Virus record (IMG/VR): IMGVR_UViG_3300007352_000022
Span: 1 to 45,213 of that record
DNA from: a virus
DNA: 45,213 nucleotides
Direction: 5' to 3' (one strand)
Shown here: positions 7,501-45,213 of the stretch, one piece after another
Layout: every line of letters begins with the position of its first letter
How positions within the stretch are numbered: position 1 is the first letter of the stretch
Notes under the pieces: model-generated
What the model was told of the DNA's origin: nothing
Databases searched by the model: none
Seen by the model: only the letters and a program-made list of their open reading frames with translations
Program-made: the position numbers and the translations under genes

Positions 7501-7509
7501 TGGTATACT
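7501..7509 (+). promoter_or_regulatory. Extended -10 promoter for the lipoprotein gene
   Basis: TGGTATACT is a TGn-TATACT extended -10 element, about 95 bases before the lipoprotein start. The -35 region is poor. The promoter faces away from the left early operon and carries no operator, so the gene could be expressed in the lysogen. Confidence 0.45.
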
Positions 7510-7609
7510 CGCCTGTGGTGAGATATCGGCTCACCCTAGATCCGTGGTCCGACAAATCAGCCTGGTCACGTGTTCAGTGTCAGGCAGGCCCTTGAAGCGA
7601 GGAGCTGTC

Positions 7610-8299
7610 ATGCGCGGGATGGTGCTCTTGCTGGCGTCGATGCTCGGGTGTGGAACTGGCGCCGATGGGACGGCGAAACAAGCCGATGACGCGGACGCCT
7701 CAGACGGTGACGGCGCCGCGACTGGTTGCCCAACGGGCGACATGGTGATCGAGTCAGACGCCGACGCGGCCGCTCTCGCGGGGTGCAACAGAATCTACGG
7801 CAACGTCACCATCGAAGGCACGAACATGGCCGCCGTCGAACTTCCCGATATACACACGATCGACGGAGCGCTGATGGTGGTGAACAACATGAGCCTCGAG
7901 ACACTCACGCTTGCGTCAATTTCATGGGCTCAGGAGATCCGCATCGAAAACAGCCCGGCACTGACGACCATATCCCTTCCGAATCTCGCCGCAGTCTGGG
8001 AAATCAGCATCGTGAACAACGACGCGCTGACCGAGCTATCGCTGCCATCTCTGGTGAAGGTTGAGCATGTGTTTCGTGTGAGCGAGAATGCGATCTTGTC
8101 TACGCCATCCTTCCCGGCGCTGACCTGCTTGGGCGACCTTATGGAGATTGAAAACAACCCCGTCGTGCGGAGCTGCGAGATCTGGGTGCGCATGCTCCCG
8201 GTCATTGACGTGGATCGTTCAAGCTGCCCCGAGGGCGCGGGAGTGGTTTGGGGAGCTGGGCTGCACCTAGGCGGCAACGACGAAGCGCCATGCAACTAG
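7610..8299 (+). CDS. Surface lipoprotein with receptor-L-type leucine-rich repeats (cargo gene)
   Basis: A 229-residue protein. Residues 1-13 are a lipoprotein signal ending LASMLG before C14, followed by an aspartate-rich linker. From about residue 40 come repeats such as IYGNVTIEGTN, IDGALMVVNN, EIRIENSPALTTISLPNL and EISIVNNDALTELSLPSL, the pattern of receptor-L domains in many myxobacterial lipoproteins. It would be anchored in the membrane facing outward or the periplasm. It has its own extended -10 promoter and a GAGGAG site, and lies between the two arms of the immunity region, like a lysogenic-conversion 'moron'. A surface exclusion or receptor-masking role is possible but unproven. 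Confidence 0.75.
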   Translation: MRGMVLLLASMLGCGTGADGTAKQADDADASDGDGAATGCPTGDMVIESDADAAALAGCNRIYGNVTIEGTNMAAVELPDIHTIDGALMVVNNMSLETLTLASISWAQEIRIENSPALTTISLPNLAAVWEISIVNNDALTELSLPSLVKVEHVFRVSENAILSTPSFPALTCLGDLMEIENNPVVRSCEIWVRMLPVIDVDRSSCPEGAGVVWGAGLHLGGNDEAPCN

Positions 8300-8310
8300 C
8301 ATGGGGCACC

Positions 8311-8646
8311 CTAGGGCGAATACGACACGGTGAAGTCCTGCGTGCACTTGGTGCACCGCTGAACAATGAGCGCTCGCCGGATCGTCGTGGCCTGGCCGCA
8401 AAGCGGGCAGGGGTGCTTTAACTGCGTCGCGTTTTGGTGTGCCGCGAAACAAAGGAGGCTGAAGACAAAAATGGGGAGGCCAACCCACGGCGAAAATCCG
8501 CAAGCCGCGCACGACCCCAGCGCGAGACAAACCGCCCCAACAAGCACGATCGTGGAGACGACCTGGCTCGCGATGCCCTGTTGCCGCACTCGGAGATACA
8601 GGTCGATCGGCGGGCGCTGGCCCGACGGCGACGGCGGGTGGTTCAT
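8311..8646 (-). CDS. Membrane protein with C-terminal zinc ribbon, co-expressed with the repressor
   Basis: A 111-residue protein. Two transmembrane segments (about 27-48 and 53-70) are followed by CPLCG and CTKC spaced as a zinc ribbon in the cytoplasmic tail. Its start overlaps the repressor stop (ATGA), so the two are one transcription unit and it should be made in the lysogen. In lambda-like phages this place often holds exclusion genes. Superinfection exclusion or signalling to the repressor are reasonable guesses only. It converges on the lipoprotein gene with an 11-bp gap. Confidence 0.7.
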   Translation of the reverse strand: MNHPPSPSGQRPPIDLYLRVRQQGIASQVVSTIVLVGAVCLALGSCAACGFSPWVGLPIFVFSLLCFAAHQNATQLKHPCPLCGQATTIRRALIVQRCTKCTQDFTVSYSP

Positions 8647-9149
8647 TTCGTGGCCTCGTCATTGCTCGCGGCGGCTTGGCCCGCGATTGACTCGGGCTCC
8701 GTGGCGCGCAGCGACTCGAACAAATGCATCCACGAACGCGCCGATGGCTGGCGGCCTGCGGGCCACTCGGCTTGTCGCATCAGGAAGCGCTCGACGGATG
8801 ATGCGGTCCGTCCAACCGGAGTGCTGAGAAACTCTTGTAGGGCGCGCTCCGCCTCCTCCGACAGCCGCGATGGCGGCCCCGAGCGGAGGTCGCGCGCCGT
8901 CACTTCGTAGCCGAGGCGCCTTGAGAAGGCGCTCGCGAGCTTCTCGAGCGTATCATCGCGCGGATTCTTCCGCAGTCCTGCCTCGATCAGGGCGACGGTG
9001 GAGACATCAGCCGCGCGGGCGAGCTCGTCCTGCGTCCATCCGGCGAGGCGCCTATACGCCTTGATGGACTCGGCGGCATCCGACAGTTCGCGCGGTGGCT
9101 CCCGGTCCTTGTATGGGCGGCGTTTTCCCACAGGCGAAGAGTAAAACAT
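8643..9149 (-). CDS. XRE-family repressor (CI-like)
   Basis: A 168-residue protein with a helix-turn-helix at about 26-80 (ESIKAYRRLAGWTQDELARAADVSTVALIEAG, in two parts). The C-terminal half is helical and lacks the serine-lysine protease motif of LexA/CI, so induction is not by RecA-type self-cleavage. It is transcribed away from a Cro-like gene, with operator sites between them and one operator over its own start codon, which implies autoregulation. No Shine-Dalgarno precedes the ATG, so a leaderless message is possible. It is the best candidate for the lysogeny master repressor. Confidence 0.85.
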   Translation of the reverse strand: MFYSSPVGKRRPYKDREPPRELSDAAESIKAYRRLAGWTQDELARAADVSTVALIEAGLRKNPRDDTLEKLASAFSRRLGYEVTARDLRSGPPSRLSEEAERALQEFLSTPVGRTASSVERFLMRQAEWPAGRQPSARSWMHLFESLRATEPESIAGQAAASNDEATK

Positions 9150-10606: not shown

Positions 10607-10855
10607 ATGAGTGGCGCCGCGGTGTCCATCGAGGTGCGGCTACGCATGCGGCCCGTGCTGCTATGGCGCCCGCTCGTATGGCTTGCGTGTCGGCTTACGG
10701 AAGCTGGCTGGCATCGGGCCGCGTACGTGGCGGCGTCGATGGTGCGCTTTGATGCCCGCGCCGGTCGGGCCTCGTGGCGCCCGTTGATTCGCCTGTCGAA
10801 GGCCATCGACCAAGCACCGGCACCGCATCTCGACGGAACGGGAGGTGCGTCGTGA
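10607..10855 (+). CDS. Small basic/hydrophobic protein, copy B of a duplicated gene
   Basis: An 82-residue paralogue of the gene at 9806, with about half the residues identical in the aligned core (LLWRPLVWL, then GWHRAAYVAASMVRFDA). Start MSGAAVS is preceded by GAGGTGC; the long upstream frame passes through the leader element and is rejected. It is followed by a GTGA-coupled gene, as copy A is. Function unknown. Confidence 0.65.
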   Translation: MSGAAVSIEVRLRMRPVLLWRPLVWLACRLTEAGWHRAAYVAASMVRFDARAGRASWRPLIRLSKAIDQAPAPHLDGTGGAS

Positions 10856-11121
10856 CGATCGAGGAACGCGTGGCCGCGCTCGAGAAGGGGGTCGCGGAGA
10901 TCAATGAGGGGCTCAACCGCTACTTTGCCGCGCCAGCGCCGGGCGAGGGCGCGACGCCCATCAAGGCGTACATTGCCGCGACGAACCCGCAGGAGATCGC
11001 AAAGACGCTACTGGAGATGGCGGAGCGGAGGGCCTACGTGTCAGCGGGTCGGATACTGCCGACTAAGCCCGCCGGGCTGTGGCGTCGCCTGGCGCGCTGG
11101 GCGCGTGGGTTGTGGCGATGA
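10852..11121 (+). CDS. Early small protein carrying the tape-measure C-terminal module
   Basis: An 89-residue protein with a GTG start overlapping the previous stop. Residues 1-22 form a short coiled coil (VTIEERVAALEKGVAEI). Residues 37-71 (IKAYIAATNPQEIA, then LLEMAERRAYVSAGRILP) match the end of the tape-measure protein (ITAYITSTNPQEIA, then LLSMAERKSYLARGTVLP) at about 21 of 34 positions. The tail is tryptophan/arginine-rich and amphipathic. An early protein that mimics the tail component could bind the same membrane or chaperone partner, for example to block superinfecting tails. That role is inference. Confidence 0.7.
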   Translation: MTIEERVAALEKGVAEINEGLNRYFAAPAPGEGATPIKAYIAATNPQEIAKTLLEMAERRAYVSAGRILPTKPAGLWRRLARWARGLWR

Positions 11122-15393: not shown

Positions 15394-15569
15394 TGGCCGC
15401 CCGCGTCCCTCGCCAGATGACGCTGCCGCCGACGCGGAAACCTCGTCGTGCGGCAACGAAGCAGCAGGTTATCCATGCCCTCGAGCGCAAGGTGATGGTC
15501 CAGAGCATCACGATTGAGGCGCTGCGCAAGGAGTTGTCCGAAGCCAAGCGGCGGAGCGGGCGCACATGA
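15393..15569 (+). CDS. Small basic helical protein
   Basis: A 58-residue protein starting MAARVPRQMTLPPTRKPRRA with TGATG coupling to the nuclease stop. A basic N-terminal tail is followed by a leucine-zipper-like helix. Its stop overlaps the sigma-factor start. It may bind DNA or the sigma factor. Not recognised. Confidence 0.55.
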   Translation: MAARVPRQMTLPPTRKPRRAATKQQVIHALERKVMVQSITIEALRKELSEAKRRSGRT

Positions 15570-16390
15570 AGAGCCGGACCGCCGACGCCTTCGCCGAGCG
15601 GGCATACCGATATCCGCCGCTCTCCGCGCGAGAGGAGTTCGACGTCGCCACGCGTGCCGCCGCTGGAGACCAGGAGGCCCGCCACAAGCTCGTGTTGCAC
15701 AACCAGCTCTTCGCGCTGAAGCAGGCCAACCGCCGCCGTCTCTACGGTCACCCGCTCGAAGAACTCCTGCAGGAGGCGAACCTCGGACTCGTGCTTGCAT
15801 CGAGGTACTTCGATCCCACGAAGGGCTTTCGATTCATCTCCTACGCCGTGTGGTGGATTGGCGCACGGCTCAACGCGTATTGCATGGACCAGCACTCGCT
15901 CGTGCGGATTGGAACCACCGATCGGAAGAGGCGGCTCTTCAGCCGCGTCGTCGCCGCGCACATGCGCCTGCGCGCCGAGAATCCGGAGGACGACGAGGGC
16001 GAGGTGTTCGCACGGGTCGCCGAGCACCTTGGCGAGGACCTCGATGACGTGATCGAGATGTACCACCGGGCGAGCAAGCGGGACGTGTCGCTCAATGAGG
16101 CGGTGTTCGAGGGCGCGCGCGAGGCCCGGGTAGACCGCCTGCCGGCGCCGAGCGTGGACGCCGATGCTGCGATCGACGACGCACGGCGAGACGCGGATGT
16201 TCGGGCCGTCGTAAGGCGATGGGCCCGCAGCGCGCAAGAGCGGCTCATCGTGGAGCGTCGTGTGCTGTGCCGAACACCGGAGACGCTCGAGAAGATCGGC
16301 GGTCGGCTCGGGGTCACTCGCGAGCGTGCGCGGCAGATCGAGGCGAGGCTTGTTTCACGGCTGAAGGAGGACCTGCATGCGGTGCTCTAG
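15566..16390 (+). CDS. Sigma-70-family (RpoH-like) phage sigma factor
   Basis: A 274-residue protein. Region 2 spans about 40-115 (HNQLFALKQANRRRLYGHP, then LLQEANLGLVLASRYFDP, then GFRFISYAVWWIGARL). Region 4 spans about 235-270, ending LGVTRERARQIEARLVSRL. Region 3 is shortened, and the layout is closest to heat-shock RpoH-type sigma factors. It lies at the end of the early rightward operon just before the late genes, so it most likely redirects host RNA polymerase to phage late promoters. The paired TGACAAC elements before the capsid and fibre operons are candidate targets, though unproven. Confidence 0.9.
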   Translation: MKSRTADAFAERAYRYPPLSAREEFDVATRAAAGDQEARHKLVLHNQLFALKQANRRRLYGHPLEELLQEANLGLVLASRYFDPTKGFRFISYAVWWIGARLNAYCMDQHSLVRIGTTDRKRRLFSRVVAAHMRLRAENPEDDEGEVFARVAEHLGEDLDDVIEMYHRASKRDVSLNEAVFEGAREARVDRLPAPSVDADAAIDDARRDADVRAVVRRWARSAQERLIVERRVLCRTPETLEKIGGRLGVTRERARQIEARLVSRLKEDLHAVL

Positions 16391-21558: not shown

Positions 21559-21772
21559 CATGCCTCACAAGTTCCACATCGTGTTGAACGCGGTGGGTCG
21601 AGGGCGAGTGGAGATAGATGGCAAGCCGATGCGCGGCGTCGTCGGGATCTCGCTGGATGCGGACGCCGGGAGCATGCCGACCGTGGTGCTGAAGTTTTTC
21701 GCTGGCGACGTGGACCTCGAAGTGCATGGCGATGTCACGACAACGGTGGAGCCCCAGACACACCCGAAATGA
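21551..21772 (+). CDS. Small beta-rich virion-region protein
   Basis: A 73-residue protein with a GTG start overlapping the previous stop. It reads HKFHIVLNAVGRGRVEIDGK and GVVGISLDADAGSMPTVVLKF, a single beta sheet domain that I recall as a common unnamed protein between minor head and protease genes. The stop codon lies in the first half of a paired TGACAAC element. Confidence 0.6.
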   Translation: MASMPHKFHIVLNAVGRGRVEIDGKPMRGVVGISLDADAGSMPTVVLKFFAGDVDLEVHGDVTTTVEPQTHPK

Positions 21773-21835
21773 CAACGCCGCATCCCCGCGCCACGACTAG
21801 CGAACGAGGCACGGCGCCCATGCACATGACAACGC
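21769..21835 (+). repeat. Paired ATGACAACGC element before the head protease
   Basis: ATGACAACGC occurs at 21769 and 21826, 57 bases apart, with a conserved ACGGCGCC between. An almost identical pair, also 57 bases apart, stands at 35585 and 35642. It fills the 107-bp gap before the capsid operon and is a candidate late promoter or activator site. Confidence 0.6.
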
Positions 21836-21879
21836 GACCGTAGAAAACGCTCCGCGCCCGCCCGTACCGTCAGCGGGCC

Positions 21880-24324: not shown

Positions 24325-24795
24325 ATGTTGAGCACCAAGAAGGATATCGGGTCGCACATCAAGGCGGCTGTCGCTGGGGCGAGCGTCGCATCGTCGGCCC
24401 CCGCCATCGTCACCGCTGGCGGCGCCGGCGATGCCACGAAGGTCACCGGCCAGTCGATCGACCGGCAGGGCTATGAGAGCCTGAGCCTGCTCATCCCGTT
24501 CTACGCGGAGCTGGCCGACACCAAGACCTTCGCGCTGGCTGTCGAGTACCAGGAGAGTTCCGACAACTCCAACTGGGACACGGCGGTCGTGGTCCAGGCG
24601 TCGACCGTGAAGGCTACGGGCGCGACGCCGACGACCGATTACCATGGCGTCGCGAAGTACGACTTGGACCTGCAGGCGAAGAAGCGCTACATCCGCTTCA
24701 ACGTCACCCCCGACCTCAACGCCGCGAACACGGACATCGCCGTGTGGACGGCGGTAGCGGTGCTCGGCGGCGCCGACGTCCTGCCGGCGGCGTAA
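24325..24795 (+). CDS. Putative head decoration or stabilisation protein
   Basis: A 156-residue beta-rich protein with alternating strands (SLSLLIPFYAELADTKTFAL, VEYQESSDNSNWDTAVVVQ, RYIRFNVTPDLN). It follows the capsid gene, where cement or decoration proteins are encoded. The YQESSDNSNW signature is frequent in such phage virion proteins, as I recall. CAGGAG precedes the ATG. Not proven structural. Confidence 0.6.
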   Translation: MLSTKKDIGSHIKAAVAGASVASSAPAIVTAGGAGDATKVTGQSIDRQGYESLSLLIPFYAELADTKTFALAVEYQESSDNSNWDTAVVVQASTVKATGATPTTDYHGVAKYDLDLQAKKRYIRFNVTPDLNAANTDIAVWTAVAVLGGADVLPAA

Positions 24796-28715: not shown

Positions 28716-31053
28716 CGCTGTCGTCGGGAGCATCGAGGTAGCGCTCCGCGCCAATACTGCGGAGTTCGACCGCGGCATGCGCGCCGTAGTCGAGAAGCTC
28801 GGCGGCATCGAGGCGGCCCTTGGCAAGATGGGGTCGAAGACGAGCGAGGCGACTGAGGCGACAGGCAGAGCCACGGCAAAGTGGGCCTCGCTCTACGATG
28901 TTGCGATCAAGGGCGCCATGAAGCTGGTGAGTGTCGCCATGGAGGGGGTCGATCAGGCCCGTGCTCAGGCCGAGGCCAACACGCGTCTCGGCAACGTCCT
29001 GCGATCCATCGGTGCTGACGTTGACGCGGTAACCGACCTCTACGGGAAGCAAGCCGACACCATAGAGCGCCTCACCGGCATGGATGACACCCAGATCACG
29101 AACATGCAGCGCCTCGCGCTCAACTACGGAGTGCAGGCCGACAAGGTGACTACGCTGATCGACGCGTCGGTGGCGTTGTCCGAGGCCACTGGTCAGGACG
29201 TCAATGCGGCGATGATGTCGCTCATCAAGAGCATGGACGGGACAATCGACAGAAGTCTTCGTCTGGTCCCTGGCGTGAAAGACCTTACCGAGGCGCAGTT
29301 GCGCCACGGAGATGCGCTGAGCGTCGTATCCGATAAGTATGGCGACGTCGTGGGCAACAAGGACTCGTTTAACCGCGCCGTCACTGACATGACCGTCGCA
29401 TGGGGGGACTTCACGAAAGCCCTCGGGAAGGCGATCATCGAGTTCGGCCCGTTGATCCGATACATCAGCGGACTGGCCGTCGAACTCAATGTTCTCATCG
29501 ACAGCATCGCGGAGTTCGGGGCGATCCGCGGCATGTTCATTACTGCCGTTGCAGCGGTGAACCCTGACCTCGCGGCGGACTACGTCGAAGGCGCGAGATT
29601 CAACGCGGCTGTCGGGCGCTTCGGGCAAGGAGGCTCACGACCGGCAGCCTCGCCGGTCGACTATGGCCGCAACGCCGGCGTCGGAAGCGGCCCGAAAGAC
29701 AGGTTCGATCTCAAGATCGGAGCACCTCAGTTCGGTGACTGGAACGCAGTGGACATCACCGAGATGCCCGACATGGACCTCTCGAAGCAGCTCGAGCAGG
29801 CCGCGCTCGACATCCACGGCATCGAGCAGTTCGTCGACATCTCCGAACAACTCGCTACCGCCGCTGACGAGATGTACCGGCAGGACTTTGCGAAAAGGTT
29901 TGGTGACGGGATCGAGTGGGGCACCAGGAACTATGTCGACGGACTTAAGCTTGCGACCGACAAGGCGACCAAGGACGCCGCCATCTGGGAGGCGGCACGA
30001 AAGAAGATTGCCGATGCCGTGGTAAGTGTAGCCGGCGGAATCAAGGACGTCATCGGATCCGCGTTGTCACAGGCGACGTCTGCGTTCACGTCCGGCGTCA
30101 GCAGTTCGGCATCAAGCTACGAGGCTCTGGCTGAGCAGCGTCGTGCTGCGGGCGATACGACAGGAGCGGCGGAGGCTAAATACCAGGCCGAAGTTCGAAA
30201 GAAAGCGGCTCAGGATGGCCAGGCATTCTCCAGGGCGATGTCGGCGACGCTCAGCGGCGGCCCAATGGCTGGCCTGCAGGCTGTTCTTTCGGAGGCCTTC
30301 GGGCGCTCGCAGGCGTTCCAGCGCATCGCGGAGATAGGCTCAAGAATGATGGGACGACTCATCGCCGCCGTTGAGCCACTTGCGTCTGCGCTTGAGCCTC
30401 TGGCGGCTGTCTTCGGGGAGATCGTCAGCGCTATCGCTGATTCACTTGCGCCAGTGCTCGAGCATGTCAAGCCAGTGATCGAGATGTTTGGCGAAGTCGT
30501 GCGCGGGTTCGCCCTGGTGCACGCCTACGTAATCAAGGGGCTGGGCTCAGCATGGAACGCCATCATTTCGGCGATCCAATGGGTCCTCCGGAAGATCGAC
30601 AAGATCGTGCCGGGCGACAAGCTCAACGACCTCGCCGACTCCATGGGCAACGCCAAGGTCAACATGGACGGGCTCAACGAGACGATCGAGAACCTGAAGC
30701 ATCCGAAGATCGACGACGGACTCGGCCTCCTGGATGACCTCCCTGGCACGCTCGATGACATCAATGACTCTGGTGAAGACCTCGGCGACACGCTCGACAA
30801 GGTCAACGCCTCACTCACCAACGTTCCTGAGGGCTTCAAAGTAGCCCGCTCCCGCTACATGGCTTCCGACCCAACGCGCTCTGGGTTCGAGGGCGTGGCT
30901 GCTGGCAACACCATCACGGCGTACATCACTTCGACCAACCCGCAGGAGATCGCGCAGGTCCTCCTATCGATGGCCGAGCGCAAGTCGTACCTCGCGCGTG
31001 GCACCGTCCTCCCAGGCATCGGCCCGTACGGCGCCCAGAAGGCGGCGGGGTAG
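28708..31053 (+). CDS. Tape measure protein
   Basis: A 781-residue helical protein starting MSDAVVGSIEVALRANTAEF, with the family's N-terminal block (AEFDRGMRAVVEKLGGIEAAL), a long helical middle and a hydrophobic region at about 560-630. It sets tail length and is ejected with DNA; 781 residues predict a tail of roughly 110-120 nm. Its last 50 residues (ITAYITSTNPQEIA; LLSMAERKSYLARGTVLP) match the early protein at 10852, an unexpected sharing. It overlaps the chaperone stop by eight bases. Confidence 0.92.
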   Translation: MSDAVVGSIEVALRANTAEFDRGMRAVVEKLGGIEAALGKMGSKTSEATEATGRATAKWASLYDVAIKGAMKLVSVAMEGVDQARAQAEANTRLGNVLRSIGADVDAVTDLYGKQADTIERLTGMDDTQITNMQRLALNYGVQADKVTTLIDASVALSEATGQDVNAAMMSLIKSMDGTIDRSLRLVPGVKDLTEAQLRHGDALSVVSDKYGDVVGNKDSFNRAVTDMTVAWGDFTKALGKAIIEFGPLIRYISGLAVELNVLIDSIAEFGAIRGMFITAVAAVNPDLAADYVEGARFNAAVGRFGQGGSRPAASPVDYGRNAGVGSGPKDRFDLKIGAPQFGDWNAVDITEMPDMDLSKQLEQAALDIHGIEQFVDISEQLATAADEMYRQDFAKRFGDGIEWGTRNYVDGLKLATDKATKDAAIWEAARKKIADAVVSVAGGIKDVIGSALSQATSAFTSGVSSSASSYEALAEQRRAAGDTTGAAEAKYQAEVRKKAAQDGQAFSRAMSATLSGGPMAGLQAVLSEAFGRSQAFQRIAEIGSRMMGRLIAAVEPLASALEPLAAVFGEIVSAIADSLAPVLEHVKPVIEMFGEVVRGFALVHAYVIKGLGSAWNAIISAIQWVLRKIDKIVPGDKLNDLADSMGNAKVNMDGLNETIENLKHPKIDDGLGLLDDLPGTLDDINDSGEDLGDTLDKVNASLTNVPEGFKVARSRYMASDPTRSGFEGVAAGNTITAYITSTNPQEIAQVLLSMAERKSYLARGTVLPGIGPYGAQKAAG

Positions 31054-32635: not shown

Positions 32636-35161
32636 GTGCGTACGCTATCGACGCGCGACGCCGCGATTCACTCTCTACCAGGCGAGGCGCGCTCCGTTCA
32701 CTACCGCTTCGAGATCGACCGCGACGGCAACGACACCTTCATCGACCTGACGAATTTCCTCGGCTTCGACTGGGTGAACGACATCGAGGTTAGCGAGGAC
32801 GTCGACAACGCCGTTGTCGATATGCGTGTGACACTGCACGAGGCGGTTGAAAACGTCAGGCTGTCACCTTTCGAGCAGACGAGCGTGGCCAACATCTTCG
32901 GCGGCTCGTACGTGCCAGCAGTCTACGTGCACAGGAAGGTGCGCCTGTACACCGCGACGGTGGGTCTCGAGGAGACGCCCATCGCCGCCGATTGGAAGCT
33001 CCGGTTCCAGGGACGCGTTGACTCGTTCGACTTCGCCAACGGCATCGTCCTCCAGTGTCGCGACGATGCCGGCGACCTGATGAGCAAGTTCATCGAGTCC
33101 ATCAACCAGTACGGTGCGGGCGATGTCCGCACGGCGATGCAGGACATCCTCGATGACCACGCGACCGCGCCAGCTCCGACGCTCTACGTGCCGACCAACC
33201 CGAGTTGGAACATCATGTCCTATCTCCAGCAGAAGGAGCCGGTGCTCGAGGCCATTCGGAAGCTAGCGCAGCAGCTCGGCTGGGACATCCGCTACTTCTG
33301 GGACAACGGCACGTCGGCGTTTCGGCTGACCTTGATGGACATCGAGACGCTGCGCACGAAGACCGCGCTCGACTACACGTTCACGGCCGATAGCCAGCTC
33401 GCGATCCAGCGCCTCGCGTTGTCGAAGGCCGGCGTGCGCAACAAGGTTTGCATCACGTACACGGACGGTGCCGGCGCGCGGCAGACCTACGTGGCGGCCG
33501 ATTCGCCATCGCAGACCGCTTACGGTGTGCAGTACATGGAGATTGCCGAAGAGGCGAACTCACAGATCGACACGCTCGCCGAAGCCACGCGCATGGGTGA
33601 CGGCATCCTCGCCGACCTGAAGGACCCCGTGGCGGACTACGCCGTCGACTGCCCGTACTTCTTCGCGGCGCAGCTCGGAGACCTCTATCGATTCCCCGCC
33701 GTGGCCGGCCGGAGCTCGGCGATCGATACGGCAATCGTCGTGATCCGGGACACCTTCTCGAAGGGCAACGCGCGCACGTCGTTCATCACGCGCGCGAAGC
33801 CGTCCGGTGGCCGCCGTCGTTGGCTCGAGATGGAGGCTCGGCCTGGTCTCAACCCGGGCACGGACCCGAGCGGTCCGGCGCAGCCGAGCAACGTCGTCGT
33901 CACGCCGTCGCTCGGTGGCTTCGAGATTTCGTACGACACGCCGACCGATATCGATTGGGTCACGTCGGAGTGCCACGTCTCTACGGTCAACGGGTTCACG
34001 CCGAGCGTGGCGACACTCAAGGCGGTGGGCAAGACGACCAAGTTCGTGATCGCTGGTCTCGTCGTGGCGACTACCTACTACGTGAAGATCGTGGCGCGCG
34101 ACCGCCACGGGAATGCCAGCGTCGTGAGTTCACAGGTCGTGAAGGCTACGGCGAACGTTGGGCCGTATCACCAGAACCTCGACACGCAAATCGGCAACAT
34201 CGTTCCGAACGGCGACTTCGGCGTGTGGTCGCTACCTAACGACAAGACTACGCATCCGCCTGACCAATGGGAATGCTGGTACTCTGACGATGGTGTGACC
34301 CTTGTGGTCGACAACACTCTGTGGACCAACGTCGGGAACGACAAGATCTACTTCGACGCTACGGAATCTGATCAGGGGGGGTACTCCGTAAAAGCGAACA
34401 AGAACAACACTGGCAAGTTTGTTCGTGGCATCAAGAACAAGGAGTTCTTCCCAATAGCGGCCGAGCAGCTTCACCTGTTTTCCTTCACGGTGATGATGGA
34501 CGTGTCGACCGACCAGGTCATCTCGGTTAACTTCTACGAGGCAGACAAGACGACTGTGACCGGCGGTCTGGCAAGGACGGGGACGCTGCCGGTAAGCACG
34601 AATGTTTGGTACCGCCACACCGAGGCCAAATTCACGCCGGCGCTCACTGCGTATGCGATGATCTTCTTTACTGTCGACAACAGCGGCGGAGTCGGAAACG
34701 TATTCTGGGATAGAGCTGAGATCTGGCGCGCGCTGCCGAGTTTCTCGGCCTATCGCAATGGCGATCAGACCGGCGGCGATGCGGCTGCGTCGGGTTCGTA
34801 TACCAAGGTGCAGATAGATGCGGAGCTCCACGACCACGGAAGCAACTTCAGTTCATTCAAATTCGTTGCGCCTCACGATGGCGACTACCAATTCTCCGGG
34901 TGCGTTGGTCTTGTCGGGCTCTCCACGTCAAAATGCATGGTCGCGTCCATTTTTTTGAACGGCAGTGTCGTCAAGGATGGCGCCAGCTCTCCGGGGTCGT
35001 CATTCACGGCGACGCGCGCAGTGGTCGACATCAAATCGATAACTCTGGTGCGTGGCGACTACGTTGAGCTTCACGTGTTCCACGACCACGGTTCAGCTCG
35101 AGACATTGCCGGCGGATCTGCCGTCACATACTTCACGGGCTCGTGCCTGCGCATGGGGTGA
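32636..35161 (+). CDS. Tail hub/tip protein with FN3 and C1q-like domains
   Basis: An 841-residue protein with a GTG start. Residues 1-400 resemble a tail hub (GRVDSFDFANGIVLQCRDDAGDL; LRTKTALDYTFTADSQLAIQ). A fibronectin-III-like domain follows (about 425-510, PSNVVVTPSLGGFEISYD; TTYYVKIVARDRHGNASVV). A jelly-roll-like binding part comes next (NIVPNGDFGVWSLP). The final 125 residues look C1q/TNF-like (GDYQFSGCVGL, SIFLNGSVVKDG, RGDYVELHVFHDHGSARD). These are typical host-adhesion modules. It is the last classical structural gene before the exported-protein cluster. Confidence 0.75.
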   Translation: MRTLSTRDAAIHSLPGEARSVHYRFEIDRDGNDTFIDLTNFLGFDWVNDIEVSEDVDNAVVDMRVTLHEAVENVRLSPFEQTSVANIFGGSYVPAVYVHRKVRLYTATVGLEETPIAADWKLRFQGRVDSFDFANGIVLQCRDDAGDLMSKFIESINQYGAGDVRTAMQDILDDHATAPAPTLYVPTNPSWNIMSYLQQKEPVLEAIRKLAQQLGWDIRYFWDNGTSAFRLTLMDIETLRTKTALDYTFTADSQLAIQRLALSKAGVRNKVCITYTDGAGARQTYVAADSPSQTAYGVQYMEIAEEANSQIDTLAEATRMGDGILADLKDPVADYAVDCPYFFAAQLGDLYRFPAVAGRSSAIDTAIVVIRDTFSKGNARTSFITRAKPSGGRRRWLEMEARPGLNPGTDPSGPAQPSNVVVTPSLGGFEISYDTPTDIDWVTSECHVSTVNGFTPSVATLKAVGKTTKFVIAGLVVATTYYVKIVARDRHGNASVVSSQVVKATANVGPYHQNLDTQIGNIVPNGDFGVWSLPNDKTTHPPDQWECWYSDDGVTLVVDNTLWTNVGNDKIYFDATESDQGGYSVKANKNNTGKFVRGIKNKEFFPIAAEQLHLFSFTVMMDVSTDQVISVNFYEADKTTVTGGLARTGTLPVSTNVWYRHTEAKFTPALTAYAMIFFTVDNSGGVGNVFWDRAEIWRALPSFSAYRNGDQTGGDAAASGSYTKVQIDAELHDHGSNFSSFKFVAPHDGDYQFSGCVGLVGLSTSKCMVASIFLNGSVVKDGASSPGSSFTATRAVVDIKSITLVRGDYVELHVFHDHGSARDIAGGSAVTYFTGSCLRMG

Positions 35162-35167: not shown

Positions 35168-35599
35168 ATGGGTGAAACGTTCGCGCTCAACCAGAAGAAG
35201 CGTCACACGACGCTCGACGTGCACGTCGCCGACAACCGGACGTGCGGAACTCGAATGCAACTATTCACGGCGATGCTCGCGAAGGCCGTCAGCGCGGATC
35301 GTGGTGGTCGTGGCGTGACCGTTGGATGGAACCGAGACCCAGAGAGCCCGACGAGGGTCGAGGTTTGGATCCTGCCCGATGCGGATCCCAACGAGCCATC
35401 GCAGCGGCTGCGGCCCAGACAGATTGAGAACGTTCGCCAGGCGTTCCTGGACGCCGGCTTCGCCGAGTCCGCCGAGATGACGGTTGAGCCCGAGGCGCCA
35501 TCGAAGGTCGACATGGTCGAGCACATGAAGACGCTGCGCAAGGAGGAGCCGAAGAAGGGCGACCATCCCGCCGAACGCGCCGACATGACAACGCCATAA
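35168..35599 (+). CDS. Protein of unknown function ending the structural operon
   Basis: A 143-residue protein starting MGETFALNQKKRHTTLDVHV: a mixed alpha/beta part (RVEVWILPDADPNEPSQRLR) and a highly charged lysine/glutamate-rich tail. The stop lies next to the first half of a paired TGACAAC element. Not recognised. Confidence 0.6.
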   Translation: MGETFALNQKKRHTTLDVHVADNRTCGTRMQLFTAMLAKAVSADRGGRGVTVGWNRDPESPTRVEVWILPDADPNEPSQRLRPRQIENVRQAFLDAGFAESAEMTVEPEAPSKVDMVEHMKTLRKEEPKKGDHPAERADMTTP

Positions 35600-35651
35600 C
35601 TCAGCGCACCGGCGCACGAATTTCCAACGGCGCCGAGCCACATGACAACGC
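35585..35651 (+). repeat. Paired ATGACAACGC element before the exported-protein operon
   Basis: ATGACAACGC occurs at 35585 and 35642, again 57 bases apart, with ACGGCGCC between, matching the pair before the head protease. The second copy is part of a perfect dyad GACAACG-CGGT-CGTTGTC. It lies in the 129-bp gap before the exported-protein genes. Confidence 0.6.
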
Positions 35652-35728
35652 GGTCGTTGTCGAATGCCACCCGCCATCGGGACAATCGCGGCTCTTGGCC
35701 CGCCCCGTGTCGCGGAGGTGCGTTCGGC

Positions 35729-37039
35729 ATGCGCTTTCTAGGATCGATCCTCGCAGTCCTTGTGGTCCTCGGCGGCGCGCCGTCCTGCGGCCCCTACGAG
35801 CAGCTCGGAGCCGACGTCTACGACTCCGCCTTTCGGTCCGACTCCACCGACGAGGCGCTGACGCTGACGGTGGACCCGAACGCCATCGGCATCCGCACAG
35901 TGCAGCCTGGGATCAAGTTCACCAGGCAGATCCAGATCGACAACTGGGGGTCGTTCGCCTCGTTCGCCGACGCCGAGCGGGTGGTGCCATCGAACATCGA
36001 ACACGCTGTGCGATTGGTCCACGCCGCGGGCTCGTTCTCGGTGAGCGACTCGTACTTCGGCTCCCTCGATCGATTCACCTTCGGGTCATCGGGGTCTCTG
36101 GCGCTCGAGGGAGCTGGCATTGCGCAGGTGAGCGGCACGTCGACGCTCACCGTCGAATCGTTGGCAGATGACTTCGCGGTCACGACTACCGCCGACCCAG
36201 GCTACGCCGATGACCTCTATGTCGACGACTTCATCGTGGCTACGGGCGGCACTGGCGCTGGCGATGTTCGCGTGGCAGCGGCGTGGGTCGATGACGTCGT
36301 AAAAATCGCCGGCTACGTAACCTGGGACGACACAACCACCGTGCAGGTGCAGCGGCCCACCACCACGCTGTCGCTCACGGGGACGAGCACCATCGCGATC
36401 CCCTTGCCTGGAGCGGTGAAGTACCATCCCGACGGCAACTTTGTGACGTTCAAGAATCTGCGCATCGACTCGGCTTCGGCGCGGGTCATCTCGCTCACTG
36501 GAGGGCGGGCGTACTTCGACAAGGTGCAGATTCGGAATGCTCGCCTGCAGGTTCTCGACGCGGCGCTTATCTACGGCGCTCTCGCGATGAACGGGGTGAC
36601 GGGTAACACTGCTAACGCAGCCATAGCTGGCGGATTCCTGCGCGCGAGCGGATACACGGCGCCTGGATTCTGGCGCAACTGGATCGCCGCATATAGCGCG
36701 TCCGGAAGTTTCGCAGCCACACCTTCGCATGCGTGGCTCGCCGGCGGACTCGTCCGCGCGTGCTCGTTCGTGGCTGTGGTTGGTTGGTTCAACGACTTCG
36801 TGGCAATCGACCAAATGTTCCGCACGATCAGTGTTTCTGACGCCGTTGTGGAGGTGAGCTTTGGCGGCAGAGCCGCTTGTGCCAAGGCGTGGTGCATCAG
36901 CGGGTCGACGCCGCCGACGGCTACGAGTGGCGAGGTTAAGGCGTACGGCGGTTACCACTCGTGGGCAGACATCGACGCTGAGACGGATTTCGCCGACACG
37001 ATGCTTCTAGCTAACGGCAGTGTCGTGAGCCTCTACTGA
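35729..37039 (+). CDS. Exported virion-region protein 1 (signal peptide, beta-rich)
   Basis: A 436-residue protein starting MRFLGSILAVLVVLGGAPSC, a hydrophobic signal with a lipobox-like APSC before a polar sequence; it could be a lipoprotein or a Sec substrate. The rest is beta-rich with threonine/serine repeats (AVTTTADPGYADDLYVDD; GYVTWDDTTTVQVQRPTTTL), like a beta-helix or fibre. The start is chosen because it begins the export signal. It follows the paired TGACAAC element. Similar proteins are not known to me. Confidence 0.7.
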   Translation: MRFLGSILAVLVVLGGAPSCGPYEQLGADVYDSAFRSDSTDEALTLTVDPNAIGIRTVQPGIKFTRQIQIDNWGSFASFADAERVVPSNIEHAVRLVHAAGSFSVSDSYFGSLDRFTFGSSGSLALEGAGIAQVSGTSTLTVESLADDFAVTTTADPGYADDLYVDDFIVATGGTGAGDVRVAAAWVDDVVKIAGYVTWDDTTTVQVQRPTTTLSLTGTSTIAIPLPGAVKYHPDGNFVTFKNLRIDSASARVISLTGGRAYFDKVQIRNARLQVLDAALIYGALAMNGVTGNTANAAIAGGFLRASGYTAPGFWRNWIAAYSASGSFAATPSHAWLAGGLVRACSFVAVVGWFNDFVAIDQMFRTISVSDAVVEVSFGGRAACAKAWCISGSTPPTATSGEVKAYGGYHSWADIDAETDFADTMLLANGSVVSLY

Positions 37040-37053
37040 GTATGGAGTGAGTG

Positions 37054-37515
37054 ATGCGAATGCGTATCCTTCTGGCACTTGCACTCGGCATCCTTCCAGG
37101 CGCAGCGCGCGCTGATGGCGACTTCGCCATTCTGAAAAGCGGCGAGAACCTTCTCTCGGCTGACAACGTTGCGTTGAACGGAACGCAGGCGGCGCTGACG
37201 ACAATCTCCATCGCCACGGCCGGACACACTTGCCTCCGCCTCACGCCCAAGGTCACGATGGGCGGTGCGGCCGCGAACCTCAAGATGTTCTGCGAGGAGT
37301 CGGACGACGAGTCGACGTGGCGGCAGATTCATCCTCCCGACGCCAGCGGGACGGTGACGCCCAGCCAGCCGATCTACAAGTGGGACAGCGGCAGCGACGT
37401 CAACACATCGTGGCGCGTCAACGTTGCGGCTTACCGATTCGTGCGTTGCTACTTCTCTGGCGACAGCGCGAACGCGAGCGATATCGTGAACAAGGTGACA
37501 GGGGCGATCCAATGA
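37054..37515 (+). CDS. Exported virion-region protein 2 (signal peptide)
   Basis: A 153-residue protein with a classic Sec signal (MRMRILLALALGILPGAARA, cleavage before DGDF). The mature part is beta-rich (ALNGTQAALTTISIATAGHT; RLTPKVTMGGAAANLKMFC). GGAG lies before the ATG; GTG one codon earlier is possible. Coupled by ATGA to the next gene. Function unknown. Confidence 0.7.
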   Translation: MRMRILLALALGILPGAARADGDFAILKSGENLLSADNVALNGTQAALTTISIATAGHTCLRLTPKVTMGGAAANLKMFCEESDDESTWRQIHPPDASGTVTPSQPIYKWDSGSDVNTSWRVNVAAYRFVRCYFSGDSANASDIVNKVTGAIQ

Positions 37516-38549
37516 CCCTGCGCTCTCTTGTTGCTGTTGCGCTGTTCGCGCCATCCGCGGCGCTCGCGCAGTATACTCCGCCTATTCGTGTTGACGCTCA
37601 GGCCGGGTACAACGGCGGCGCCATCACTTCGCCAGCCCTTGTTCCCGATGGAACGGCCGCGGCGCCCGGTGTGGCGTACTCTGCCGCCGCGAACTGGGGC
37701 TTCTTCCGCGACGCCAGTACAGGGATCAACGTGGCGATCTCAGGTAATGGATCGCTGGCACTCTCTGGCGGCGGCGTCTACTACCCCAGTGATTCGACGC
37801 TCAGGTGGACCGGCACGGCGAAGACGACAGGGGCTGTTGGTGGGTCCGTCGACACGACCATTAGCCGTCCAGCCGCCGGTGTGGTGCGCATCTCGACGGT
37901 CGACGCGACGACGCCTGGAGTTCTGCAGTTCGGCAACGCGACGCTGGTCGATACGAATGCCACCGATGGCGCGGTCCGCATTCGCAATGCAGCCGCTACG
38001 CTGGCGCGTACTATCACGGTAATCACCGGCAGCGAGCTAGACCTAGGCTCGGGAAACGCGCGGATCACCGGCGACTTCAACGTGCGCGGAAGTAGTTCGG
38101 TTCTGCTGGGGAACGACAACGCGTTCGCCATCTCATATGCAGGAAACAACTACTCGACGATCGGTGTAAACACGGGCAACCCGCTGGTGATCATCCAGAA
38201 GGCCGACACGGGCACGAACTGGTCTCACGCGGACACAGGCCACCCCGCTGTGTACGTGCAATCCGAGGACGCGGCACAGGTCAACGACTACGTGCGGATA
38301 CAGCACGACGCGACAGACGGATTCGTGCAAGCCGGCAACGGATATCTGACGCTTGGCGGTGGGTCGGGCGTGAAGATGGACGGCACTAGTTACATCGAGT
38401 TCACGCGTCAGGGGGCCGGCGCTCCGACCGCCGGCGACTGCGACGCTGACGCTGAGCGCACGCGACTCTACCTCGATACAACGAATCATCGTGTTTACGT
38501 CTGCAACGGCGCATCACGCGCGTGGGACTACGTAGACCTCACCAATTGA
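37512..38549 (+). CDS. Exported tail-fibre-like protein 3 (signal peptide)
   Basis: A 345-residue protein with a Sec signal (MTLRSLVAVALFAPSAALAQ, cut ALA-Q). The mature chain is made of fibre-like repeats (GNGSLALSGGGVYYPSDSTL; GVLQFGNATLVDTNATDG). It ends with the common phage fibre tip TRLYLDTTNHRVYVCNGASR followed by AWDYVDLTN. A fibre tip behind an export signal is highly unusual for a virion protein. It begins by ATGA overlap. Confidence 0.75.
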   Translation: MTLRSLVAVALFAPSAALAQYTPPIRVDAQAGYNGGAITSPALVPDGTAAAPGVAYSAAANWGFFRDASTGINVAISGNGSLALSGGGVYYPSDSTLRWTGTAKTTGAVGGSVDTTISRPAAGVVRISTVDATTPGVLQFGNATLVDTNATDGAVRIRNAAATLARTITVITGSELDLGSGNARITGDFNVRGSSSVLLGNDNAFAISYAGNNYSTIGVNTGNPLVIIQKADTGTNWSHADTGHPAVYVQSEDAAQVNDYVRIQHDATDGFVQAGNGYLTLGGGSGVKMDGTSYIEFTRQGAGAPTAGDCDADAERTRLYLDTTNHRVYVCNGASRAWDYVDLTN

Positions 38550-38563
38550 TGGAGTCATCTTTG

Positions 38564-39202
38564 ATGAGCCGCACCGTCATCGTAGCGCTGCTCCTCTTCG
38601 CTGCTCCGGCGCTTGCACAGGAGCGTGCATGGTCCGAACTCGTCGGTCCGTCCCAGGCCACAGGAGTAAAGCTCTCGGCGCTGACGACGTTCGTCAGTGG
38701 CATCGGGATCAACCGGGTCGCGAACTTTACGCGGCTATCATGCACGAGCAAGCTCGAGGGAAGCCCCGCCGTGCGCGTGTGGGACTGCGGCGACTTGCAG
38801 ATGGCGCGCTGCGCCGACGAGGCACAGTACGATTCGCTCGCTGGTAGCGGTCGCCTGGTGCAGCCAATAGGCATCATGGGTGATGCGCAGAGGCCGCCGC
38901 CGGCGTGGTTTCAGTCTACGGGGTGTGCGTCGACCGAGTGGGTCGTCATCGCGCGTGTGAATCAACGGCGGGTCGCTGGCATCGACATGCTCAACATGGC
39001 CGCCTTCCTCGTTGAGGCATGGGGCATCGACGCGGAGAAGGCTCGTGGCTTCGTCGTCGAGCGCGACGTAGCCACAGGCACCGCGTATATCACGACGAAG
39101 GGCGTCCGACTTGGGACGCGGGCAGAGTTTCGAGCGGCATGGAAGGCCAACAAGCCGCAAGAGCAATACATCGTCGGCGTGGCGCCGGATCTCGTTGACT
39201 AG
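38564..39202 (+). CDS. Exported protein 4 (signal peptide, cysteine-containing)
   Basis: A 212-residue protein with a Sec signal (MSRTVIVALLLFAAPALAQ). The mature part has cysteines near 47, 61, 69 and 108 that could form disulfides in the periplasm (TRLSCTSKLEG; RVWDCGDLQMARCAD; FQSTGCASTEW). The end is alpha/beta. GGAG lies nine bases before the ATG. It completes the run of four exported products. Not recognised. Confidence 0.68.
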   Translation: MSRTVIVALLLFAAPALAQERAWSELVGPSQATGVKLSALTTFVSGIGINRVANFTRLSCTSKLEGSPAVRVWDCGDLQMARCADEAQYDSLAGSGRLVQPIGIMGDAQRPPPAWFQSTGCASTEWVVIARVNQRRVAGIDMLNMAAFLVEAWGIDAEKARGFVVERDVATGTAYITTKGVRLGTRAEFRAAWKANKPQEQYIVGVAPDLVD

Positions 39203-39205: not shown

Positions 39206-39523
39206 ATGGACGATGTTCTCGGCACAGCCCCCGGCGATATGACCTGGGCCCAGATCATCCAACAGGGTGGCTCAGCTCTGGCGGCCGTGTTGCTCGTTGC
39301 GGTTGTAGTGCTCTGGCGCGCGTGGGCAGCGGAGCGCAGGGAGCGTCTCGAGGAGGGACGCCGCCATGCGGACGAGCTCGATCGGCACAATGGTTCGCTG
39401 ATGTCCCTCGCTACGGCGAGCGTCCAGAACACGACGAAGGTGGAGGCGACGCTGTCCCGCGTGACCGACGTGCTCGAGCGGCTGGACGACAGCGTGCGTG
39501 ACCTGGAGGCGGGCCGTGGGTGA
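39206..39523 (+). CDS. Membrane-anchored coiled-coil protein (holin/spanin-like)
   Basis: A 105-residue protein. One transmembrane helix at about 22-42 (GGSALAAVLLVAVVVLW) is followed by a long charged coiled coil (AAERRERLEEGRRHADELD; VTDVLERLDDSVRDLE). A type of this order can be an inner-membrane spanin (Rz-like) or an XhlA-like holin partner. Start three bases after the previous stop. Role in lysis is inferred from position upstream of the endolysin. Confidence 0.6.
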   Translation: MDDVLGTAPGDMTWAQIIQQGGSALAAVLLVAVVVLWRAWAAERRERLEEGRRHADELDRHNGSLMSLATASVQNTTKVEATLSRVTDVLERLDDSVRDLEAGRG

Positions 39524-40380: not shown

Positions 40381-40980
40381 ATGCGCTTGTCTTCGAAGAC
40401 CCGCGACGTTCTGAATGATGTCGTTGACATGGTGGCGATGGCGGCGTTCATGCTTCTGTCTCTGGCGAGCGTCGCTCGAGCCGCAGAGGAAGCAATCGTC
40501 GAGCCCACATGGGTCGAGCGCATGTTCGCGCTCGGCTCGCCTCAATTGCTCGGCGGCCTCGCGGTCGGCGTCGCGATGCTGTGGGGTCTCTACAAGACCA
40601 AGCTCGGGAGCACTGTCCGAGCCGCGCTGAAGTTCCCCTTCGTGCAGCGCGTCTACGACCGGCTCATCCAATACTGCGAGTTGAAGGCGGCGCACTTCGA
40701 GGCGACGCACGTGCCGCGATTGAGGGCCAAGCTCGTTGCCGCCGGCTCCGACGGGCGCTTCACCAAGGCCGAGGTGGACGAGTTGCGCGTGCTCTTCTTC
40801 GCCGCGGTGAAGGACGAGTTCGCTTTGTTCCCGCTGCTGCAGTTCCTCGCAGGCTGGAGCGACGATGATGCTGCCTCGCACGTGGCCCAGATTCAGGACG
40901 CCGTGGCGCTCAAGGTATCGACGGCGAGCGCGGTCAAAGAGTCCGCTAAAGCCGGGGCACTCGCTGCTGCGGGCCCTTAG
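40381..40980 (+). CDS. Membrane protein before the endolysin, holin candidate
   Basis: A 199-residue protein starting MRLSSKTRDVLNDVVDMVAM with GGAGG upstream. The first hydrophobic segment (14-34) ends ARA-AEE and could be a signal or membrane helix; a second is at 55-73 (LLGGLAVGVAMLWGLYKT). A long cytoplasmic-type helical domain with FTKAEVDELRVLFFAAVKDE follows. It could be a holin or a membrane-associated regulator. It is followed by a short weak ORF and the amidase. Confidence 0.55.
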   Translation: MRLSSKTRDVLNDVVDMVAMAAFMLLSLASVARAAEEAIVEPTWVERMFALGSPQLLGGLAVGVAMLWGLYKTKLGSTVRAALKFPFVQRVYDRLIQYCELKAAHFEATHVPRLRAKLVAAGSDGRFTKAEVDELRVLFFAAVKDEFALFPLLQFLAGWSDDDAASHVAQIQDAVALKVSTASAVKESAKAGALAAAGP

Positions 40981-41201: not shown

Positions 41202-41804
41202 GTGCTCATTTCATTAGATCCAGGCCACGGTGGCGGTGACATCGGCTGCAACGCCTCCGGCATCTGCGAGAAGGACATCGTGTTGCAGGTGGCGCAGGCG
41301 CTCCGTGCTACCGCGGCCGCTCTGCCGTGGCTCGACATCACGGCGAAGCTGGCGCGGGACTCCGATCGCAACCTCGGCCTGTCGGAGGCTGGCGCTCTCA
41401 GCCGAGCGCACAGGTCTGAACTCGTCCTGTGTCTGCACGTCGACGCAGCGATCGACGCCTCCGCTACAGGCCTGCGCGCCTACGTGATGCCTGACTCACG
41501 CAACGCCGTGCTCGAACTCGCCATCGCGAAAGCGCTGCAAGCGAGCGCGCCGGCTCCACTGCGTCAGGTGGCGGCGCCGTTCGAAGCAACCCCAGCGCGG
41601 GCAGTCACCGAGAAATTCGTCCAGCACGTGCGCCACGTCATCGGCCCGCACGCCGAGCACACGCCGACGGTGCTGCTTGAGCTCGGGTTCATCACGAACC
41701 CGATGGACCGCACCTACCTCGCGTCTCGAGTCGGCCAGGGCGAGCTCGCGCTTTCGCTGCTCTCCGGCCTCTCGAGGGCGCGCGCCATCAGGGGAGGCTC
41801 GTAG
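41202..41804 (+). CDS. N-acetylmuramoyl-L-alanine amidase (endolysin)
   Basis: A 200-residue Amidase_3-type enzyme covering only the catalytic domain. LDPGHGG at 5-11 gives H9; E23, H near 79 (LHVDA) and E near 162 (VLLELGFITNP) complete the zinc/catalytic set. It cuts the bond between muramic acid and the peptide. No signal peptide, so it depends on a holin to cross the membrane. GTG start with GGGAGG upstream. Confidence 0.85.
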   Translation: MLISLDPGHGGGDIGCNASGICEKDIVLQVAQALRATAAALPWLDITAKLARDSDRNLGLSEAGALSRAHRSELVLCLHVDAAIDASATGLRAYVMPDSRNAVLELAIAKALQASAPAPLRQVAAPFEATPARAVTEKFVQHVRHVIGPHAEHTPTVLLELGFITNPMDRTYLASRVGQGELALSLLSGLSRARAIRGGS

Positions 41805-43647: not shown

Positions 43648-45213
43648 TCAGTGTCCCCTGCGTGCCAGATACGCTTCCGCCAGGCGTTTGATGTTGTCCC
43701 CGCCTGTCTCAAGCTTCTCGACGAGTTCGGCGTTCGGATCACGGAGCCCTTCGATCTGCGATCGTTTAAGCCCAAGCACGTCCGCAATCACGGGATCTGA
43801 GCCGCTATCCGAGAGGAGGAAGTACGCTACGACCTTCTCCGTCTGCCCGTCGCGGTGGACGCGTCCGATGGCCTGCTCATGCACGCCTGGGCTCCAGTCG
43901 AGTTCGCCGAACACGACGGTGCGGCAGCATCCCTGAAGACCGTCGAGCCCTGCACCAGCACGCAGTGACATCAAGAGCACCTTCGATGCTCCGGAAACGA
44001 ACGCCTCCTTGGCCGCCTTCTTCTGCGCTGGGCTCTCACTGCCCGTGAACATCACGGGGGACAGGTCCTTGAGCCGCTCCATCCACAGATCGTAGACGAC
44101 GCGGTGCCATCCGTAGAGGACGACGCGCTCGTCGCTCTCGACGAGCAGGCGCACGAACTCAGCGACGTACGGCGCCTTGGCGATGCCGGTGGCCTGGCGC
44201 AGCAGCATGCTGATCTCCTCGGCCGCGCGCATCCTCTCGCCCTTCACCAGCTGCGGGCCTTGGGCGAGCAGGATCCTGGCGAGCTCGGACGCGCGGTCCT
44301 CGACTGCGTCGAGCGCATCGGCGTCCGAGTCGACGTGGTGGATCGCCTTCGTCAGGTCGGGCAGCTCGCGGCCGACGTCCTCGCGCGTGCGCCTGAGCAT
44401 GAGGCCCTCCGCACGCAAGAACGAACCGAAGGACTTCGGATCCTTGATGAGCAGGCGGTCGTTGCTCATTGTGCTGCACCATTCGCGCGAGAACTCTCCC
44501 CGAGTGCCGAGCGAGTCGGGCCGGACGATGTTCAGCACCGAGTGCATCTCGCCGCCGTAGTTGTAGATGGGCGTCGCGCTGAGCCCGGTGCGGAAGTCGG
44601 CCTGGTCGGCGATGTGCTTTGCCGACTTGTATTTGTCGCTGTCGTGGTGCCGGAGATCCTGGACCTCGTCGAAGATGACGCTCTTGACGCGCCCGGCGAG
44701 GACGTCCGCCCAGCCGGCGAGCTTATGATAGTTCGTGATGATGACGTCGGGCAGATCGTCGACACCGGGCAGCGCTAGGTTGGGCTCTTCCTTCCGCTTC
44801 CGGCTCATCGCTTTCTTGATGTCGTAAGGCGTGCCCTTCCGGAGAATGTGCGTGGTTAGCTGCGGCGCGAACCGCTTGATCTCGGCCTGCCACTGACGTG
44901 GCAGGTGCGTGAGCGTCACGACAAGCGCCGGCCTGGTGCGCGGGTCGGTGAGCGTGCAGATGGCGGTGGCCGTCTTGCCCAGGCCGACGTCCGAGTAGAG
45001 GAAGAGCGGGTTGTACGCCGTCGCCGGATTCTCTGCGACCGCGTGGCACGTCGCAAAGGCGAAGTTGTTGCGCTCGCCGACGATGAACGTCTCGAACGTG
45101 TAGTCCGGCACGAGGCGAAAGCCCACCGTCTCCGCGCTCGAGCCCGGCGCGGCAGCGGCGCCCGGACCCAGCTCGCGCCCCACGCGCGCCGAGATGTGCT
45201 TGTCCGCCAGCTG
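43648..45213 (-). CDS. SNF2-type helicase with DnaA-like N-terminal AAA+ segment (partial at edge)
   Basis: At least 521 residues, open to the window edge and probably joined to the start at 48. [20 protein letters not shown] and [15 protein letters not shown] match the start of the DnaA AAA+ domain up to Walker A. From there the chain is SNF2-like: [24 protein letters not shown] (motif II), GLSATPI (motif III), [15 protein letters not shown] and [16 protein letters not shown] (motifs V-VI). DnaA's own later motifs are absent. An ATP-dependent remodeller targeted by a DnaA-like part is possible. It belongs to the leftward early operon if the genome is circular. Confidence 0.85.

Follow-up and report, generated by a model that had tools for sequence, protein, structure and literature searches.

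Some phages encode exported proteins that act on the host surface. The accepted precedent is Llp of phage T5, a small early lipoprotein that blocks FhuA from the periplasm and thereby prevents both superinfection and adsorption to fragments of lysed cells (PMC9586334). For Porphyromonas gingivalis phages, one report describes Sec-signal genes that have no assigned function and are proposed as potential outer-membrane modifiers (PMC10367356). Tail fibres are usually taken to be cytoplasmic parts of the virion, and both tools and experiments treat fibre matches as virion receptor-binding proteins. A survey of proteins of diversity-generating retroelements reports the phage members as lacking signals (PMC6199706), and no description of signal-bearing tail fibres was found in the open-access literature searched. 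Here we analyse four adjacent late genes, p1–p4 (35729–39202), of a tailed phage represented by IMG/VR record IMGVR_UViG_3300007352_000022. The window is the whole stretch of DNA that was analysed, 45,213 bases with 65% G+C.

The products of p1–p4 carry predicted Sec signals and belong, by features and not by homology, to a class of signal-bearing fibre-type proteins that recurs in phages and prophages. As judged from sequence features, members of this class are very probably exported in reality, and for p1–p4 themselves the same is said with slightly less confidence. Like Llp, p1–p4 would be phage-encoded exported proteins, here proposed to deny receptors to further or progeny phage; unlike Llp, they are larger, of fibre type and encoded in a late operon. 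The features of the Llp/Cor type are not found in the set: only p1 may be a lipoprotein, the products are 153–436 residues long, the operon is late, and there is no family match. The Porphyromonas phage genes are not identified as fibre-type in the accessible part of that report, which gives them a rule of their host's own, cleavage before Q (PMC10367356).

The closest counterparts in cultured phages are gp19 of Burkholderia phage BcepC6B (YP_024939.1) and orf035 of Xanthomonas phage PBR31 (QIN95346.1). Both share with p1–p4 a signal peptide and a location between a tail fibre or spike gene and the lysis cassette, and the recognised fibre tip is theirs. They differ in being one gene instead of four, in having no detectable homology to p1–p4, and in being annotated as a tail fiber and a putative structural protein. 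The PBR31 paper reports a signal on a neighbouring esterase and does not mention gp35. The individual parts are of known kinds; their combination and spread appear new.

Four Adjacent Late Genes with Predicted Export Signals

On a home-made signal-peptide score, calibrated only on six exported E. coli proteins and a few controls, p1–p4 reach 8.1–9.8, the top four values among the 64 called genes; the exported E. coli controls score 6.4–8.3. A score above 8 is seen in 0.04% of shuffled N-termini (a null of 4e-4 per gene) and in one of 131 non-gene open reading frames (ORFs). By this heuristic, all four N-termini combine a charged n-region and a hydrophobic core with small residues at −3 and −1 or a lipobox, as in Sec substrates. 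The sequence-only reading, made before any database search, had described four consecutive products with export signals, and the scores bear this out. It had also spoken of Sec or lipoprotein signals. The Sec-type signals are strong throughout, but the lipoprotein status of p1 is doubtful because APSC, with P at −2, is a poor lipobox, and signal peptidase I may be the enzyme that processes p1.

The four genes lie close together and run straight into the lysis genes. The gaps are 14–20 bp between p1 and p2, −4 bp between p2 and p3, 14 bp between p3 and p4, and 3 bp between p4 and the next gene, which encodes a transmembrane (TM) and coiled-coil protein. Shine-Dalgarno-like sites precede p1, p2 and p4, and the start of p3 overlaps the stop of p2 by four bases (ATGA). 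This spacing upholds the operon that had been proposed at 35600–39202, with the correction that position 35600 falls in the 5' gap and the first gene begins at 35729.

The same reading had called the products fibre-like, which holds in part. For p3 the likeness lies in composition and the C-terminus only, and p1 looks beta-helix-like by eye only, whereas neither p2 nor p4 can be recognised as a fibre; no fold could be assigned to p4. No Pfam or NCBIfam family accounts for any of the four proteins, and PHROG matches are marginal only. Pfam and PHROG profile searches yielded neither homology to known fibre families nor a virion-anchoring domain, and none of the four matches a lysis family (spanin, holin or endolysin), the lysis genes lying 3' of the set. 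A PDB sequence search with p1, p3 and p4 returned nothing credible, and AlphaFold2 models built without an alignment have predicted local distance difference test scores of 30 for p1 and 39 for p4, too low for use. No close relatives were found in IMG/VR for p2, p3, p4, the hub protein and the amidase (p1 was not among the queries), or in cultured phages for p3, p4 and the hub protein.

A lead for p2 is a marginal match to phrog_5707 (E = 0.025; BLAST E = 0.1), too weak to support a claim. This is the family of the protein whose gene follows that of the major capsid protein, and the post-capsid protein of the window itself (24325–24795) matches it at 3e-16. The two window proteins may share a fold, a suggestion equally too weak to claim.

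A 78-nt element lies before p1, and a second copy lies before the protease/major capsid operon. Each copy holds two perfect ATGACAACGC motifs with a spacing of 57 bp, and the motif occurs in perfect form nowhere else in the window; the elements are 71% identical in a repeat search. The element was identified through repeats because no sigma-70 consensus promoter was found in the region. An upstream element in common had been noted by the sequence-only reading and is real (35580–35657 and 21764–21841). It is perhaps a joint late control site, possibly read by the sigma factor that the phage itself encodes.

Recurrence in Other Phages and Prophages

Signal-bearing fibre-type proteins are not unique to the window phage, as three surveys of small and partly related samples show; they recur beside lysis genes in several metagenomic phages that are unrelated to one another. 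The first survey covered about 30 phage records of IMG/VR that have the terminase in common; scored for signals, several of them proved to hold signal-bearing virion-type proteins. Record L129 has three consecutive signal-bearing genes (5531–8956) between an 1802-residue fibre gene and holin-like genes, the first encoding a Gly-rich fibre tip (phrog_863, 4e-12; Gly_rich_2, 7e-11). Further signal-bearing genes lie in L018 (9629–10204) and L030 (10456–15600, 1714 residues). Genes for small signal-bearing proteins also follow the capsid gene, immediately or at a short distance, in L123 (15854–16776) and L128 (5479–5967), which raises the question of exported capsid-type accessory versions. As a separate observation, a protein of the metagenomic phage L026 (10829–12043) joins a strong signal to a dockerin-like start (FDINGDNVMDIRDV).

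The second survey was blind to signals and scanned IMG/VR for a fibre-repeat motif, giving 73 ORFs with intact 5' ends. Clear signals were present in two or three of them. In both clear cases two signal-bearing genes stand one after the other beside lysis genes: in L263 (473–3102) the two are followed by TM proteins and a GH108 endolysin, and in L259 an endolysin lies 3' of the pair.

With the two tandem L259 proteins as leads, the third survey reached Burkholderiaceae prophages and cultured phages, among them BcepC6B and PBR31. Both gp19 and orf035 sit between tail fibre or spike genes and genes for holin, endolysin and spanin. A gp19 relative occurs in 26 of 300 Burkholderiaceae genomes, with a signal at the start of most loci inspected. 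In Shewanella phage vB_Sb_QDWS (UEP18758.1; L321, 4998–7061) the annotated start omits about 270 residues, including the signal peptide. A record of equal length labelled "Hujiaoplasma phage zrk29-1" gives the same matches as vB_Sb_QDWS, and the relatives are Burkholderiaceae prophages, so the host labels are open to question.

Two gene layouts recur. In one, a fibre or spike gene is followed by the signal-fibre gene and then by holin, endolysin and spanin (seen in BcepC6B, PBR31 and the window, and partly in L338 and L345). In the other, holin, endolysin and a holin-like gene come first and the signal-fibre gene ends the late operon (L325, L332, L344 and L347). In the prophages L306, L325 and L332 the signal-fibre gene is followed by a gene of Acyl_transf_3, a family that includes O-antigen acyltransferases, and a putative O-antigen deacetylase is encoded near the signal-fibre gene of PBR31. 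These neighbours weakly suggest a link to the receptor.

Domain Anatomy and Cysteine Content

Homology to fibre families was found for the analogues gp19, orf035, L317 and L129, and in the clearest cases it is confined to the C-terminal half of the fibre family. Residues 93–357 of gp19 match positions 281–538 of the 538 positions of phrog_11393, residues 36–269 of orf035 match positions 319–538, and L309 matches positions 216–538. The Klebsiella phage Kp2 fibre (ALJ98146.1) spans positions 1–538. The tail fibres of phrog_11393, such as that of Kp2, and of phrog_863 have a C-terminal tip homologous to the signal-bearing class; the Kp2 fibre differs in its N-terminal virion-anchoring Phage_T7_tail domain and has no signal peptide. 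In the analogues that can be assigned to a family, the virion-anchoring half is, by these alignments, gone, with a predicted signal peptide in its place. The earlier remark that virion proteins are assembled in the cytoplasm, so that export signals on them are unexpected, fits this anatomy, since the best-resolved analogues are without the anchoring half.

Past the signal, a few N-terminal modules recur with exchangeable tips (ARR-type, Gly-rich and beta-helix), as in ordinary fibres. Analogous proteins of other phages retain the signal: among the 19 ORFs that carry module A, the most frequent N-terminal module, 18 have one; the lone exception also begins with something resembling a signal, but it lacks a normal start in the available DNA.

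Cysteine makes up 0.99% of residues in the signal-bearing class and 0.28% in 67 signal-less fibre-repeat proteins, a 3.5-fold difference (p = 4e-12). With the set reduced to 14 members p is 6e-7, the fairer figure because proteins of the same family are not independent of each other. An even number of cysteines is found in 34 of 43 signal-bearing proteins as against 13 of 44 signal-less ones (p = 3e-6). In the window, the four mature proteins contain 13 cysteines in 1070 residues, while the head-tail module has 26 in 5597 residues (p = 0.006). A cysteine excess, mostly in even numbers, is what is predicted for proteins folding in an oxidising compartment, and this indication is independent of the N-terminal score.

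Proposed Role and Alternatives

As possible roles the sequence-only reading had offered decoy fibres, adhesins of the infected cell or a receptor-blocking coat. The explanation that we favour, tentatively and with a little less than an even chance, is that p1–p4 are late Sec-exported binding proteins of fibre type, receptor tips that cover receptors around lysis. Proteins of this type would use Sec to cross the inner membrane and form disulphides as they fold in the periplasm, and they would be present at lysis and released by it. The released tips would then find a host surface receptor, for example lipopolysaccharide (LPS), and bind it on the dying cell, on debris from it and perhaps on neighbouring cells. 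Progeny would in this way not be lost to re-adsorption and competing phages would be shut out, an action like that of T5 Llp with a binding tip in place of the receptor-jamming lipoprotein. With similar reserve, p1–p4 might be seen as an extreme case, four in tandem, of a recurrent trait in which a signal peptide replaces the virion anchor. More tentative again is the generalisation that many Gram-negative phages make a secreted receptor-binding tip besides their virion fibres, stabilised by disulphides, encoded with the lysis genes and bearing a signal peptide where the virion anchor would be, for general receptor occupation at lysis, with the window holding a four-protein version under a capsid-gene control element. 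If the trait applies to a few per cent of fibre-type genes, as the two or three of 73 in the signal-blind scan would imply, some annotations of receptor-binding proteins are wrong; it would also offer a novel means of keeping progeny safe or rivals out, testable in cultured BcepC6B and PBR31.

Several points weigh against receptor covering by p1–p4. Export, cleavage and binding are predictions from sequence. The loss of the anchor is seen in other members of the class, whereas p1–p4 are without homologues in the collections (p1 was not queried), and p2 and p4 need not be fibres. Fibre tips in the periplasm could meet surface receptors only through lysis or by some other route, and Llp acts early while the p1–p4 genes look late. 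In BcepC6B, gp18 and gp19 match different fibre families, with no tip match apparent between the signal-fibre and the virion receptor-binding protein of the phage.

The main rival holds that the proteins are late-added virion parts, which would gain disulphides in the periplasm and join fibres or capsids as an extra adhesin when lysis mixes the compartments. The gp38 protein of T-even phages, a separate adhesin tip, would be the parallel. Tips from true fibre families, even cysteine counts and adjoining fibre genes in BcepC6B, PBR31 and the window all suit this rival, as do the signal-bearing small proteins right after the capsid gene in two phages and the faint likeness of p2 to the post-capsid protein family of the window. 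We nevertheless consider it rather unlikely, given that the known virion-anchoring half is absent from the family-assignable cases and that several prophages place the gene at the far end of the lysis cassette, distant from the tail genes. Holin, endolysin and spanin genes as constant neighbours could instead point to envelope or lysis accessories that bind LPS or peptidoglycan and aid outer-membrane rupture or prevent debris aggregation, a role to which a lipoprotein p1 would be suited. This is improbable: annotated spanins are already present in BcepC6B and PBR31, and the variety of tips (Gly-rich, beta-helix, ARR-type) resembles receptor specificity more than a fixed lysis job.

It is just as improbable that the proteins are adhesins of the infected or lysogenic cell, acting at the surface or in biofilm as morons that alter host behaviour. 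Signal peptides and a prophage context would suit such adhesins, and the Porphyromonas phage report proposes signal-bearing genes as outer-membrane modifiers (PMC10367356). The genes are, however, in a late/lysis operon and not in the position of an independently expressed moron, and the window set has its upstream element in common with the capsid operon. Least probable of all is that the N-termini are unused as signals and merely make ordinary virion fibres hydrophobic at their start. The annotation of gp19 and orf035 as tail fibre and structural protein agrees with this, and cleavage is a prediction from sequence. Against it stand the complete n-h-c signals seen in unrelated families and retained by 18 of the 19 module-A ORFs, the cysteine excess with even counts, and the 67 signal-less fibre-repeat ORFs, by which fibres need no such N-termini.

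Genome Context and Other Observations

The genes follow a recognisable order from the sigma factor through terminase, portal, protease, major capsid protein and connectors to the tail genes, then through p0 and p1–p4 to the lysis genes with the endolysin (Table 1).

Table 1. Positions of p1–p4, the upstream element and neighbouring features in the window
Feature	Position	Strand	Remarks
Phage sigma-70-like factor	15566..16390	+	Sigma70_r2 6e-10, r4 3e-7
Terminase	from 18029		
Portal	from 19452		
Second element copy	21764..21841	+	before protease/major capsid operon; same 57-bp spacing
Protease	from 21880		
Major capsid protein	from 23066		followed by connectors
Major tail protein	from 27512		
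Tape measure	from 28708		
Two large tail proteins	ending 35161		
Baseplate-hub/tail protein	32636..35161	+	signal-less neighbour of p1–p4; C1q-like tip by eye
p0	35168..35599	+	143 residues, without signal, no assigned function
78-nt element	35580..35657	+	before p1; two perfect ATGACAACGC 57 bp apart
p1	35729..37039	+	436 residues; MRFLGSILAVLVVLGGAPS then CGPYEQ; predicted signal peptidase II (APS-C) or signal peptidase I site
p1 signal sequence	35729..35785	+	predicted; 19 codons ahead of Cys20; score 9.8
p2	37054..37515	+	153 residues; MRMRILLALALGILPGAARA then DGDF; predicted signal ARA-D; small beta-type protein; alternative start 37060
p3	37512..38549	+	345 residues; MTLRSLVAVALFAPSAALA then QYTPP; predicted signal ALA-Q; fibre-like body
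p3 C-terminal tip			Cys pair (GDCDA..YVCNG..W)
p4	38564..39202	+	212 residues; MSRTVIVALLLFAAPALA then QERAW; predicted signal ALA-Q; 4 Cys in mature part
TM and coiled-coil protein	39206..39523	+	weakly Rz/i-spanin-like; start 3 bp past p4
Lysis-region protein	40381..40980	+	N-terminal hydrophobic/signal-like segment and second TM segment
Endolysin	41202..41804	+	Amidase_3 (1e-24)

Other features of the window were noted in passing. An odd fusion (43648–45183, minus strand) joins a short Bac_DnaA-type N-terminal segment (residues 26–71, 2e-15) to an SNF2 helicase (61–287 and the C-terminal half). An 80-nt repeat, 75% identical, links 10958–11037 with 30911–30990; through it, part of the tape-measure C-terminus (..TNPQEIA..L..MAER..Y) reappears in a small early ORF (10852–11121). 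Among the early genes, 7619–8299 (plus strand) encodes a lipoprotein-like protein with a Receptor L domain and a host-derived look, a possible clue to the host. On the minus strand, the gene at 5448–6326 contains 24-nt tandem repeats, and 1890–2744 encodes a pentapeptide-repeat protein with a regular 15-nt repeat.

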